From Weeksellaceae bacterium (GTDB lineage Bacteria > Bacteroidota > Bacteroidia > Flavobacteriales > Weeksellaceae), in contig JAKLPS010000032.1 in the NCBI GenBank assembly GCA_022013695.1, forward strand, positions 1 through 64,000: 64,000 nucleotides of DNA. The letters are read 5' to 3'. Shown in pieces: positions 4,553-47,474 of the stretch. Below the pieces are notes generated by a model that did not search any database, was not told the origin of the DNA, and saw nothing but the letters and a program-made list of their open reading frames with translations. The translations under genes and the position numbers were made by a program. How positions within the stretch are numbered: the stretch's first letter is position 1; every line of letters starts with the position of its first letter.

Positions 4553-4831
4553 CTAAGACTTTGGTAATTTTAAGGGTATGGCTATAAAATTCTTCGGATA
4601 ATAGATCTTGCCCCCAATCGTGGTAAACCGAAGGATGCCTTTTTTCCTGTAGCGCATCAGGGTTCGGTAGCTCACTTTTAGCAGCTGCATCATATCGAAA
4701 TTGTCGTACCGGAGCATATCCGCATGGGAGCTTTCCGTTTCCAGCGCCTCAGCCCTTGTTGAAGGATCCAAGATTTCTGCGATGGCCTGCAATGCTTGTT
4801 GCAGGATTGTGTTGTCTTTAGAATTATTCAT
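4553..4831 (-). CDS. Small helix-turn-helix (excisionase/MerR-like) DNA-binding protein
   Basis: The product has 92 residues. The C-terminal half reads MMQLLKVSYRTLMRYRKKG followed by a beta-wing (ILRFTTIGGKIYYP), the layout of HTH_17 or excisionase-type winged helix domains found widely in Bacteroidota. The N-terminal half is a short helical segment. It faces against the polysaccharide genes, alone, between a terminator and a long AT-rich repeat region. No integrase, transposase or att site was recognised nearby, so an excisionase role is not supported; it may be an orphan regulator or a relic of a mobile element. Confidence 0.7.
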   Translation of the reverse strand: MNNSKDNTILQQALQAIAEILDPSTRAEALETESSHADMLRYDNFDMMQLLKVSYRTLMRYRKKGILRFTTIGGKIYYPKNFIAIPLKLPKS

Positions 4832-5213
4832 TGCATTTCATATTTTATCATCTTTTCAATAATCGGAAGCGGCTGTCCTTTAAAACTTAGGCGGCCCAAC
4901 CTTCCTAATTATTTTTCAAATGTAAGGAAGTGTTTTTTATTATGCAAATAGAAATTATGATAAAATCAAAAAATTTGGCTTTTTAGTCAAAAAATTACTA
5001 ACTATGAACATTTTTGCAATGGTTGCAAATAAGTTACTATGTACAAATTTGTATATATGATAATAGCGCATCATTTGCTTTTAGATGTATTATTTTGGTT
5101 CATATATAAAGAATCAGCGTTTATTTTGCGAAAATGATAGTTGGTGTGGTTTGCCCTTTTTGCTGATTTTTTTCGAGATTTGTTCGAGTCCGCTTGCAGG
5201 TTTCTTCGAGAGC

Positions 5214-5243
5214 GCTTCGAAAAAAGCAACCTTTTTTCGAAGC
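5214..5243. repeat. Perfect 13-bp inverted repeat
   Basis: GCTTCGAAAAAAG and its exact complement are separated by a 4-base CAAC loop. Degenerate TTCGAG/TTCGAA blocks flank it between about 5170 and 5265 and again near 5395-5410. In either direction it could fold as a stable RNA hairpin, but the T-run lies inside the stem, so it is not a standard terminator. Confidence 0.8.
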
Positions 5244-5436
5244 AGAGTCGAAGGTCTTTCGAACAAGTCTGCAACAAAACCCCTTTTTTAGCCCTCCAAA
5301 TAGACTTAAAACGTGCTTAAGAATTTTAAACCACAAAAAATGAAATATTTAAAAAAAAGTGGAAATCTTTTCAAGAAATGCAAAACTGCCATATTCGAGT
5401 CTTTTTTCGAACTTTTGATAAACTTAGAAAACTCAT

Positions 5437-5963
5437 AGCTTTTGTGACTTTGTGGTTAATGAAACTGATTTTGAACCACAAAAGTCACAAAAGTTAAAAT
5501 TCACAAGACTGTATTTACAAAATGCCAGAAAGTTCTACTTTTCTGCTTTTTAAACCAGCAAAGTCTTATTTTAAACCACAAAAGTCACAAAAGTTAAAAT
5601 TGAGCCTTAGCTTTTGTGACTTTGTGGTTAATGAAACTGATTTTGAACCACAAAAGTCACAAAGTTTAAAATCTACCACACCGTTCTTTTTTACTTTTTG
5701 ATACGCATAAGAAACTCATAGCTTTTTGTGACTTTGTGGTTAATGAAACTGATTTTGAACCACAAAAGTCACAAAGTTTAAAATCTACCACACGGTTCTT
5801 TTTTACTTTTTGATACGACGTAAGAAGCTCCTAGCTTTTGTGACTTTGTGGTTAATGAAACTGATTTTGAACCACAAAAGGCGCAATAGTTAAAATTGAG
5901 CCTTAGCTTTTTGTGACTTTGTGGTTTGTGAAACTGATTTTGAACCACAAAAGTCACAAAATA
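5437..5963. repeat. Array of imperfect palindromes (TTTGTGACTTTGTGGTT / AACCACAAAAGTCACAAA)
   Basis: Five copies of a unit of about 62-65 bp begin at about 5437, 5609, 5720, 5833 and 5905, plus a right half-copy at about 5574-5600. Each unit pairs a TTTGTGACTTTGTGGTT arm with an AACCACAAAAGTCACAAA arm across a conserved spacer of about 16 bases (AATGAAACTGATTTTG). Units three and four lie in a tandem duplication of about 112 bp: the segment from about 5662 recurs from about 5774. Motifs of this type are scattered in flavobacterial intergenic DNA; their function is not known to me. Confidence 0.85.
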
Positions 5964-6137: not shown

Positions 6138-6168
6138 TTGATTTTCAGTATTTTATACTTTATCTTTG
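6138..6168 (+). promoter_or_regulatory. Bacteroidota-type promoter for the DUF6266 gene
   Basis: TTG at 6138-6140 and TATCTTTG at 6161-6168 are separated by exactly 20 bases, which matches the TTG-N19/21-TAnnTTTG consensus of Bacteroidota housekeeping promoters. Transcription would start near 6175 and give a leader of about 55 bases before the ATG at 6230. Confidence 0.65.
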
Positions 6169-6229: not shown

Positions 6230-6865
6230 ATGGCAACAATTAAAAGCGGAATCCTCGGAGGATTCCAAGGCAAAGTGGGAACCGTAGTAGGATCCACTTG
6301 GAGAGGTAGAGACATCATCAGATCTCTACCGAAGAGTTCGGGTAAAAACCCGACTGAATTGCAACAGCTTCAGCGCGTGAAGTTCAAAGCTGTCACCTCC
6401 TTCCTCAATCCCCTGCGGACGCCCTTGGGGGTGTACTTCGGGAGCGCGTCGGGCGTTAGGAGCCGGTTCAATCTGGCAACCGCCTATCACCTGACCGATG
6501 CGGTGGAAGTGACGGATGGTGTGGCCAAGATCCTCTACCCGAGGGTTTTGGTCGCGAAGGGAACGCTCTTTGGGTTCCAGAATTTGACGGTGTCGCACGC
6601 CGGCACCGACATTACCTTGGAATGGGAAGACAACATCGTGTTGGGCAATGCCAAGGCAGAAGACGCGGTAAACGTGGTCTGCTACAGCGAAGTGTACAAC
6701 ACCTTTTTGGTCTTCCAGAATGTGGCGATGAGAGAGGCGCTAAGTGCTACGGTCTCCCTGCCGCAGAATTTTACAGGGACCGCCGTAGAGCTCTATGCCT
6801 TTATCTACGACCCGGTTACCAAGACGGCGAGCACCTCTGTTTATCTCGGGAATATAGCTTTCTAA
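6230..6865 (+). CDS. DUF6266 family protein of unknown function
   Basis: The 211-residue protein opens with ATIKSGILGGFQGKVGTVVGSTWRGRDIIRSLP, followed by a KNPTELQQLQRVKF stretch; this N-terminal signature is typical of the DUF6266 family of Bacteroidota. The rest alternates hydrophobic and polar residues in short beta strands. No signal peptide or membrane segment is seen. The gene stands alone with its own promoter (6138-6168) and terminator (6891-6936), and it has higher GC and more regular codon use than the flanking DNA. The function is unknown; the beta-rich repeats suggest a structural or binding protein, which is a guess. Confidence 0.85.
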   Translation: MATIKSGILGGFQGKVGTVVGSTWRGRDIIRSLPKSSGKNPTELQQLQRVKFKAVTSFLNPLRTPLGVYFGSASGVRSRFNLATAYHLTDAVEVTDGVAKILYPRVLVAKGTLFGFQNLTVSHAGTDITLEWEDNIVLGNAKAEDAVNVVCYSEVYNTFLVFQNVAMREALSATVSLPQNFTGTAVELYAFIYDPVTKTASTSVYLGNIAF

Positions 6866-6890: not shown

Positions 6891-6936
6891 AAAGCAACCC
6901 TCAATGAGCCGGTCTCGAGGGTTGCTTTTATTTTTG
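6891..6936 (+). terminator. Rho-independent terminator of the DUF6266 gene
   Basis: A perfect 13-bp stem AAAAGCAACCCTC / GAGGGTTGCTTTT with a 14-base loop is followed by a T-rich tract. It starts 26 bases after the stop codon. Confidence 0.85.
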
Positions 6937-21880: not shown

Positions 21881-22690
21881 TCCTCCTGAGCTTGTCGAAG
21901 GACGGATGAGGTAAACTGACGGGGGCTTCGACGGGCTCAGCCTGAAAATGTTTACGGCTCAGCCACGAAGTGGCAAAATAACACAGCATCGGGTACAACC
22001 CGATGAAAAACAAATGGAATAATACAACATCGGGTGTAACCCCACGAAAAATAAATGGAATAACACGGCATCGGCTTCGACAGGCTCAGCCTGACAAGGT
22101 TTACGGCAGAGCCACGAAGTGGCGAAATAACACAGCATCGGGTACAACCCGATGAAAAATAAATAGAATAACACAACATCGGGTACAACCCGATGAAAAA
22201 CAACGGAATAATACAGCATCGGGTACAACCCGATGAAAAATAAATAGAATAACACAACATCGGGTACAACCCGATGAAAAACAAATGGAATAACACAATA
22301 TCGGTGTAACCCGATGAAAAATAAAGGGAATAACACAGCATCGGCTTCGACTTCGACGGGCTCAGCCGGACAAGGTTTACGGCAGAGCCACGAAGTGGCG
22401 AAATAATAGAGCATCGGGTACAACCCGATGAAAAACCAATGGAATAACACAATATCGGGTGTAACCCGATGAAAAACAAATGGAATAATACAGGATCGTG
22501 TACACCCCGATGAAAAATAACGGAATAATACAGCATCGGGTGTAACCCGATGAAAAAACAACGGCATAACAAAATATCGGGTACAACCCGATGAAAAACA
22601 AATGGAATAACACAATATCGGGTGTAACCCGATGAAAAATAAATAGAATAACACAGCATAGGGTACAACCGATGAAACAAAATAGAATCT
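21881..22690. repeat. Tandem array of about 14 hairpin units (CATCGGGTACAACCCGATG) with three composite REP-like modules
   Basis: The core palindrome CATCGGGTACAACCCGATG, or its variant with GGGTGTAACCC, recurs about 14 times, at roughly 21987, 22028, 22136, 22177, 22217, 22258, 22296, 22411, 22452, 22492, 22531, 22572, 22612 and 22655. The period is 40-41 bp. The linker AAAAAYAAATGGAATAAYAC is conserved and not unique. Three modules of about 60 bp break the array (about 21924-21980, 22070-22131, 22340-22405). They contain a CTTCGAC...GGCTCAGCC block and a GCCAC-GAA-GTGGC hairpin. The minus strand is open in several frames only because the repeat has few stops. Confidence 0.9.
21886..21940. 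repeat. REP-like inverted pair CTGAGCTTGTCGAAG / CTTCGACGGGCTCAG
   Basis: The two 15-base arms match at 13 of 15 positions as inverted repeats and are separated by 25 bases. The block CTTCGACaaGCTCAG is a motif that recurs in intergenic DNA of many bacteria. Here it marks the left edge of the hairpin array and could act as a transcription terminator-like structure after the GT2 gene. Confidence 0.7.
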
Positions 22691-30150: not shown

Positions 30151-30265
30151 TCTTTCGTGCGAAGCTGCAATAGGGATAGTAGTGGAAATCCTTTTTTGCA
30201 TTGGGAAAAGTCTTGGCAAAAAAGATTGCAACGGATAGCCCGACCCGCGCAGCTGCTGAGCTTTG
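30151..30265. repeat. Flavobacterial REP-like intergenic element with hairpin
   Basis: The block contains GCTGCAATAGGGATAGTAGT, a stem TCCTTTTTTGC / GCAAAAAAGA around a 20-base loop, and then CGGATAGCCCGACCCGCGC. I recognise this arrangement as a dispersed intergenic repeat of flavobacteria. A related layout (CCCGACC, a T/A-rich hairpin, GGAACGGAGG) occurs at 50975-51064. It sits between a TPR-like gene and nadA, both on the minus strand. Confidence 0.6.
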
Positions 30266-47054: not shown

Positions 47055-47474
47055 CTATCAAATCTATAAAAAAATATTTTTTTTGAAAAGAATTTGAATT
47101 GAAATTTACGTTAAATTTACACTGATTAAAATTATTTTGGCAGCTTGATTAGTCTTCCGCTCCCCATCTTTTCTGCCGACGGTTTAGTTGAGCTGAGCGT
47201 CATCACAAGCAAAAAAAGATTTCCCTTCAAACCTAACAAAGTGGTTCATCGATTCAAATATAAAAATAGAAAGGATGAGATCTGCCTGGCTGCAGCTGCG
47301 CAAAGCTCAAGATTTGTCTTTCAGTTTAAACATTGATTAAAATTTTAGTTTTTTCTTGGATAAGTTATAGTTTATGCTGAGCTTACAGAAGTAACTTTGT
47401 GAATATAAAGTGGCTAGTATCAAAAAAACTTTGCGAACTTTGCGGTTACATAAATTTCAGAATTTTCAAATGAA
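47055..47474. other. Intergenic region without credible gene
   Basis: This gap of about 420 bases between divergent yqgE and pdxH genes holds a possible -7 element on the minus strand (47059-47066). Near 47430 it has CTTTGCGAACTTTGCGGTT, which resembles one arm of the palindromes at 5437-5963. A frame at 47145-47336 has no recognisable domain. Confidence 0.6.
47059..47066 (-). promoter_or_regulatory. Possible -7 element immediately before the yqgE start
   Basis: On the minus strand TAGATTTG is followed by ATAG and then the ATG at 47054. The expected start of transcription would fall at the start codon. The -33 position has only a T-rich run. Confidence 0.35.

Follow-up and report, generated by a model that had tools for sequence, protein, structure and literature searches.

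An array of palindromic elements next to a DUF6266 gene in the genome of a Weeksellaceae bacterium is probably a tandemly amplified dispersed repeat which has lodged in the control region shared by this gene and a small divergent HTH_17 gene. In this reading, which we favour, the array itself would be passive and the HTH_17 protein is predicted to bind 11-mers lying in the same region. The analysis started from a stretch of 64,000 nucleotides (the window), which belongs to contig 31 of a draft genome of 2.6 Mb (G000), a close relative of Chryseobacterium sp. SC28, and was extended to 23 genomes of the genus.

Architecture of the array and its dispersed relatives

The array is real and its elements and linkers are listed in Table 1. 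The first-pass annotation had placed the cluster at 5437–5963; the cluster there stands, but the true start lies earlier, with an eroded element, and the whole array spans 5329–5960. The unit is an inverted-repeat element of 56–96 bp followed by a 16-nt linker, and the units are arranged head to tail. The left arm AACCACAAAAGTCACAAA is found on the plus strand exactly at 5474, 5574, 5646, 5758 and 5943 and with three mismatches at 5870, and the right arm TTTGTGACTTTGTGGTT starts at 5441, 5613, 5725, 5837 and 5910, six left and five right arms being packed into about 520 bases. By chance 0.17 left and 0.22 right arms are expected per window; six left arms were reached in 0 of 100 shuffles and five right arms in no shuffle. 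Together with the five 16-base spacers, four of them identical and the fifth with two changes, these arms bear out the clustering of palindromes and conserved spacers that had been described at first pass. The palindromic unit proposed there, arm–spacer–arm, is present in the sequence but is the joint between neighbouring units and not the unit itself. The inward pair AACC...GGTT is the natural unit, and it is in this form that the repeat is dispersed elsewhere in the genome. A tandem duplication of 112 bp, likewise reported, was confirmed by copies at 5612 and 5724 with 99% identity over 94 nt and by a TRF period of 112 (2.6 copies, 93%).

Table 1. Features of the region between the HTH_17 gene and the end of the DUF6266 locus (positions in the window)
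Feature	Position	Strand	Basis
Small HTH_17 gene, 92 aa, divergent from DUF6266	4553..4831	-	Pfam HTH_17 31.2 bits, cut-off 27
11-bp-phased iteron block: three TTCGAG, one degenerate TTGCAG, TTCGAA; palindromic centre TTCGAAAAAAGCAACCTTTTTTCGAA; TCGAA copies in inverted order	5166..5275		lag-11 test
Element 1, with eroded left arm; right arm at 5441-5457	5329..5457		sequence, arm scan
Linker AATGAAACTGATTTTG	5458..5473		spacer scan
Element 2, left arm intact, right end lost	5474..5573		arm scan
Element 3, short form of 56 bp, near-perfect hairpin	5574..5629		folding, alignment
Linker	5630..5645		spacer scan
Element 4, 96 bp	5646..5741		folding, alignment
Linker	5742..5757		spacer scan
Element 5, 96 bp; together with one linker makes up copy two of the 112-bp tandem unit	5758..5853		91/95 aligned bases same as element 4; TRF period 112
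Linker	5854..5869		spacer scan
Element 6, short form of 57 bp	5870..5926		folding, alignment
Linker with two changes	5927..5942		spacer scan
Terminal lone left arm	5943..5960	+	arm scan
Promoter-like motif (TTG ... TATCTTTG) upstream of DUF6266, presumably of Bacteroidota type	6138..6168	+	read by eye
DUF6266 gene, 211 aa; C-terminal half modelled with low confidence as FnIII-like beta-sandwich	6230..6865	+	Pfam PF19781 107.6 bits, cut-off 23.4
Terminator-like hairpin with T-rich tail, 3' of DUF6266	6894..6935	+	read by eye; consensus scan gives only a minus-strand match

The stems had been noted as able to form strong RNA or cruciform structures, and three units of the array (z −3.6, −7.9 and −2.8) as well as one joint (z −5.0) do fold into more stable RNA than their shuffled versions. 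Rfam gave no match inside the array at gathering scores. On its upstream side the array stops short of the promoter-like motif (read by eye) by about 180 bp; neither a function as RNA leader nor a part for the hairpins in the DUF6266 mRNA is therefore supported. Elsewhere in the window we noticed a Flavo-1 RNA (Rfam RF01705) on the plus strand at 30165–30249, with 61.7 bits against a gathering score of 42, and an Acido-Lenti-1 RNA on the minus strand at 22110–22154, whose 37.7 bits lie just above the gathering score of 37. A lone arm-like sequence that had been noted near 47430 turned out to be a different variant, more than three mismatches away from either arm. What is found at 47428–47447 is an arm of the AACCGCAAAGTTCGCAAAGT type (ACTTTGCGAACTTTGCGGTT), another palindromic-repeat variant located shortly 5' of a start codon.

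A search of the whole G000 genome with the arm gave 22 matches outside the array at up to two mismatches, and 0 in the control. Thirteen of these arms form seven inward pairs, AACCACAAAAGTCACAAA ... TTTGTGACTTTTGTGGTT, of 94–153 bp; nine are single and some of the nine are possibly chance matches. Compared with the open reading frames the dispersed elements are mostly intergenic. All five right arms of the array are one A shorter than the left arms, and this right-arm form has five matches in the genome at up to two mismatches, all inside the array. It is not wholly private to the array, since the dispersed element L014 carries the same shortened A-run at three mismatches. At up to one mismatch the arm is found in 23 of 23 genomes of the genus, in two of 13 other genomes of the family and in none of 23 other genomes of the order.

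The repeat shares with REP- and MITE-type repeats that it is short, dispersed, mostly intergenic and bounded by inverted repeats, which we find at both ends of all seven complete dispersed elements, some with mismatches. The arms contain CCAC/GTGG; in REP sequences a GT[AG]G guide is located at the hairpin foot. Unlike these repeats our repeat is arrayed head to tail at one site, where its 16-nt linker is near-constant, and it has neither a clear target-site duplication nor an arm near the Y1_Tnp genes of the genome. Four of the seven complete elements have no target-site duplication and the other three have only A/T matches of 2–5 nt; a MITE insertion with target duplication was not seen among them. 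An orthologous intergenic site (L116–L135) was compared in 20 of the 22 other genomes of the genus, and no clean empty site was seen at it. The repeat is present there in G001, G004, G005 and G008 (4 of 20 genomes), and the other genomes have a GAACAC-type palindrome, unrelated sequence or another gene. In the sister genome SC28 (G013) this site carries another palindromic type than in the genome of the window.

It would be conceivable that the elements are REPs or REPINs mobilised by a RAYT (TnpA_REP) transposase and that the array is a REP cluster made by this enzyme. Palindromic intergenic elements are dispersed in the genome, two Y1_Tnp genes are present, and subclass 2.4 of TnpA_REP is abundant in Bacteroidetes according to PMC6006769. 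The same paper, however, gives 21–65 nt for REPs, and our complete elements with their 94–153 bp are longer. Furthermore neither Y1_Tnp gene (L009, L010) is flanked by an arm at up to four edits within 1.5 kb on each side, so a RAYT origin was rejected and we regard it as very improbable. The excerpts of PMC12306157, PMC13063519, PMC5771137, PMC6006769 and PMC3733652 contain no description of the repeat or of a module of HTH_17 and DUF6266; the palindromic repeats in the excerpt of PMC13063519 are CRISPR. No description of the repeat or the module was met in a partial literature search, which does not show that they are absent from print.

Probable local growth of the array, and tandem arrays at other DUF6266 loci

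The exact tandem joint, TTTGTGGTT-N4..30-AACCACAAA, occurs in only two of the 23 genomes of the genus and in both only at this locus, five times in the window and once in SC28. The flanks in SC28 are 96–97% identical to those of the window, the DUF6266 proteins are 99% identical, and one complete unit is situated between an eroded element and a lone arm. SC28 in fact has two joints, one of which carries a change and hence falls outside the count of exact joints. As the joint is found at this locus only and SC28 has one complete unit, the array most likely grew by local tandem duplication and represents the amplification of one copy of the dispersed non-coding repeat. The growth would have proceeded by slippage or unequal exchange between units.

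The clustering next to the DUF6266 gene had been taken as a hint at a link between the two, a link that clusters beside unrelated genes would make a matter of chance. DUF6266 has 41 matches in 22 of the 23 genus genomes, two of them being fragments (L097, L098). When the 1.65 kb upstream of all 41 loci were searched for arms at up to two edits, only three loci were found: the window (10 exact arms), SC28 (L064, three exact arms) and L061 of G019. The arms of the latter are related ones, 1–2 edits away and all in one orientation, and are contained in a 130-bp unit repeated six times. For the exact repeat the link is consequently weak, with exact arms at 2 of 41 loci, and single elements do adjoin unrelated genes, although the exact tandem joint does not recur elsewhere.

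In a broader form the link is supported, since tandem arrays in general gather upstream of DUF6266. The non-coding DNA up to 1.6 kb upstream of the gene (41 regions, 42 kb) contains 15 tandem arrays, as against eight in the remaining 102 kb of non-coding DNA in these regions. Six of these eight have a period of 77 bp (one is given as 231, three times 77) and follow cas2, and because of this period and position they are read as CRISPR; the other two are in L071. Thus 15 arrays in 42 kb compare with 2 non-CRISPR arrays in 102 kb, a clear excess upstream of DUF6266 in this genus. Five of the 15 have a period of 11 or 22 bp and four of these were taken as iterons. Other DUF6266 loci have arrays unrelated to that of the window, with 197 bp × 3.6 in G022, 71 bp × 2.7 in G002 and 22 bp × 8.6 in G020. 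The long arrays of L088 (G022) and L061 (G019) consist of motifs of the dispersed type, TGAGCGGAGTCGAAG being an example. A long-period array is absent from most DUF6266 loci in this genus.

These data bear on the question whether the array could be a working variable-number tandem repeat, in which a change in unit number would shift the length or the shape of the DNA separating the 11-mers from the DUF6266 promoter and thereby adjust expression from one lineage to another. The number of units indeed differs between the two sister genomes, the unrelated 197-bp array of G022 (L088) also lies between 11-mers and gene, the array in front of DUF6266 in G019 is made of a repeat with related arms, and tandem arrays are enriched at this position. 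On the other hand the array of the window is present in only two genomes and a long-period array is missing from most DUF6266 loci of the genus, and we hold a tuning function to be unlikely. Most likely the array is passive. It would be a duplication-prone insertion into a long control region, without a dedicated function of its own, which by its position between the 11-mer block and the promoter-like motif may weaken or insulate control.

Phased iterons, the HTH_17 gene and DUF6266

Most DUF6266 loci of the genus have iterons with steps of 11 or 10 bp and an HTH_17-like gene nearby. The phasing was analyzed in the region reaching from the HTH gene, or from 1.6 kb upstream, to DUF6266. At lag 11 at most 2 of 200 shuffles reach the score in 30 of 41 loci and at lag 10 in 18 of 41, and lags 9, 12 and 13 give three, three and no loci in the same test. 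With fixed windows of 600 bp upstream of the gene (40 loci, L059 being dropped on account of its short upstream sequence) lag 11 exceeds 0.545 in 21 of 40 loci versus 4 of 72 controls taken mostly from intergenic DNA and 7 of the whole set of 333 controls; for lag 10 the corresponding numbers are 15 of 40 versus 1 of 72 and 4 of 333.

The 11-mers in many loci of one subtype are TTCGGNNNNNN around the centre TTCGGAAAAAA-NNNN-TTTTTTCCGAA, and at other loci GGATACAGAAC, GGATATAGAAC, AGCCTATAGAA, TATCCAAAGCC, CAGAAAAGGTA or others. A block of 10-mers such as GTCAAAACCA often comes next, near the promoter-like motif. The iteron word follows the subtype of DUF6266 (single-linkage clusters at 50% identity) more than the genome. 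For 35 of the 41 loci the median similarity of the iterons is 15 between loci of the same subtype in other genomes (n = 218) versus 6 between loci of another subtype in the same genome (n = 15), with a p-value of 2.5e-10 that overstates the independence of the comparisons because the loci are related by descent. The largest subtype holds several different words, and subtype 3 varies even within one genome (L081 and L083 of G018).

The iterons of the window are weaker than those at most loci. In the region 4832–5330, 300 shuffles were compared with the lag-11 score at each size of test window, and 0 reached it with 55 bases, 8 with 77 and 1 with 99. Over the whole region of 1.4 kb 7 of 200 shuffles did so, and this locus misses the threshold behind the 30 of 41. 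The block folds as one large palindrome (z −3.8). It lies 955–1064 bp upstream of the start codon of DUF6266, far away because the array sits between, and no 11-mer signal is seen in the last 600 bp before the gene since the array fills this stretch. In 12 other subtype-0 loci the best 11-mer stretch starts 157–242 bp upstream, and in SC28 at 726 bp. Outside the genus we inspected 12 loci, namely one from Pedobacter and the 11 that came out of a class-wide search, in which 11 of 198 genomes, the genome of the window included, were positive. Three of them have 11-mers: G201 strong ones (TGCTAACTATA), Pedobacter with additional 10-mers, and G152 weak ones; nine are without clear 11-mers.

An HTH_17-like gene is located within −3000 to +1500 of DUF6266 in 30 of 41 loci, upstream in 28 and downstream in two, and the model finds one further match elsewhere in 666 kb, a specificity which is partly circular as the model was built from DUF6266 neighbours. 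At 11 loci the gene was undetected, three of these having less than 1 kb of upstream sequence. Five of the proteins were checked with Pfam: four, that of the window included, are above the cut-off and that of L067 with 25.7 is just below. Four HTH proteins were scanned with BldC and excisionase models, and only L061 matched, below the cut-off; its score with the BldC subfamily model, 21.5 bits against a cut-off of 77, is the best obtained. The HTH protein of the window has no NCBIfam family.

By analogy with BldC and Xis the HTH_17 protein would bind the 11-mers as an oligomer. According to PMC5859096, the subunits of BldC sit head to tail on direct repeats, the bound sites being 9 bp long. 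PMC11963761 counts RdfS, BldC and an Xis among the HTH 17 proteins and describes BldC filaments with one DNA turn between subunits. In these known systems and in our module alike, a small HTH_17 protein goes together with sites that vary in number and are spaced by about one turn of the helix. Our module differs by its 11-bp steps in place of 9-bp sites and by DUF6266 as partner gene, and in the TTCGG/TTCGA type also by an inverted centre. By comparison with BldC at direct repeats (PMC5859096) and with RdfS as discussed in PMC11963761, the most economical model would have the HTH_17 protein oligomerise head to tail on the 11-mers, with about one subunit per helix turn; the oligomer would set how strongly its own gene and DUF6266 are expressed.

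The DUF6266 protein itself could be described only roughly. A model from the single sequence is poor (pLDDT 47.5) and one from three sequences moderate (59.3); both match FnIII domains best, with E-values of 0.01 and 4e-4, respectively. With low confidence the models suggest helices in the N-terminal half and an FnIII-like sandwich in the C-terminal half. A profile search of the PDB sequences with DUF6266 gave a best E-value of 0.29. A viral origin was rejected, as one pattern searched in viral contigs gave no confirmed relative, and so was the possibility that DUF6266 or HTH_17 of the window is a listed defence protein (0 families with PADLOC). In the literature searched we met no mention of DUF6266.

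Neighbouring genes, lone iteron blocks and implications

In seven loci (L060, L063, L067, L070, L072, L073, L074) cas9 directly follows DUF6266 and starts about 220–310 bp past its stop codon. One of the proteins was checked with Pfam and PADLOC, and all seven places agree with a Cas9 search, which gave matches in 15 genomes of the genus, so that seven of these 15 have cas9 after DUF6266. In six of the seven loci cas1 and cas2 come after cas9, and behind them stands the tandem array interpreted as CRISPR; in L067 the sequence stops at the edge of the contig. Six of the seven loci lie on the same side of one gene, which we take to be tex, so there are perhaps two independent contexts and not seven. 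DUF6266 is retained at one site with or without cas9 (L067 versus L065 and L068). Genes of the HsdM cluster are found within 5 kb in seven loci, three confirmed by PADLOC, and a gene of the glycosyltransferase cluster follows DUF6266 in seven loci, one checked with Pfam; both are raw counts. Other glycosyltransferase-like genes follow DUF6266 in SC28 and in the window.

A pattern search for the 11-mers at up to one mismatch gave 53 matches in 17 of the 23 genomes and 18 with the reversed control, eleven of these in G005; some matches look like chance, e.g., G000:C18 and G011:C74. Apart from promoters of DUF6266, the matches include good lone TTCGG 11-mer palindromes (L136–L146) with no DUF6266 gene recognised nearby in the available sequence. 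The gene downstream is presumably a SIR2-type deacetylase in G021, G017, G008, G014 and G010 and an amino acid permease in G008, G003 and G006. The G006 contig opens with a reversed promoter region of DUF6266 type, so that the gene may lie in an assembly gap, and a lone block in G005 retains 10-mers together with remnants that resemble a promoter. Such blocks could be relics, or they could act in trans.

ParR/parC-type centromeres consist of clusters of iterons of about 11 bp. Our module resembles them in its clusters of direct repeats of about 11 bp near a promoter, and is unlike them in being chromosomal and in having HTH_17 and DUF6266 as neighbours. One might suppose that variable loci are marked by the 11- and 10-mer blocks, which would be no operators but sequences of a centromere-like or recombination-hotspot kind, organised or protected by DUF6266 and HTH_17. 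The TTCGG palindromes that stand without a visible DUF6266 gene upstream of the putative deacetylase and permease genes agree with this, as do the four draft contig ends in or within about 100 bp of lone blocks and the variable operons adjoining several loci. But what is left in the lone block L145 includes remnants of 10-mers and of a promoter-like motif, as if a DUF6266 gene had been lost, and the position of the blocks in the 12 other subtype-0 loci, 157–242 bp upstream of the gene, also speaks against it. We judge a centromere or hotspot role quite improbable and prefer the reading as a control region into which the repeat was inserted.

A more far-reaching proposal, which we put forward only tentatively and consider doubtful, is that HTH_17, iterons and DUF6266 form an undescribed control module at hypervariable loci in some Bacteroidota (CRISPR-Cas9, type I restriction, capsule). 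HTH_17 would polymerise on 11-bp sites diversified by subtype, DUF6266 would act together with HTH_17, lone blocks would respond in trans, and the arrays would be insulators of variable length. Beyond the genus the 11-mers have limited generality (3 of 12 loci), and the array alone is ordinary. It points to DUF6266, a small DNA-binding protein and strongly phased, fast-changing sites, directly before cas9 in seven loci. If the HTH_17 protein does bind the iterons, this would offer a handle on the control or marking of some defence and surface-polysaccharide loci and would provide the first testable role for DUF6266.
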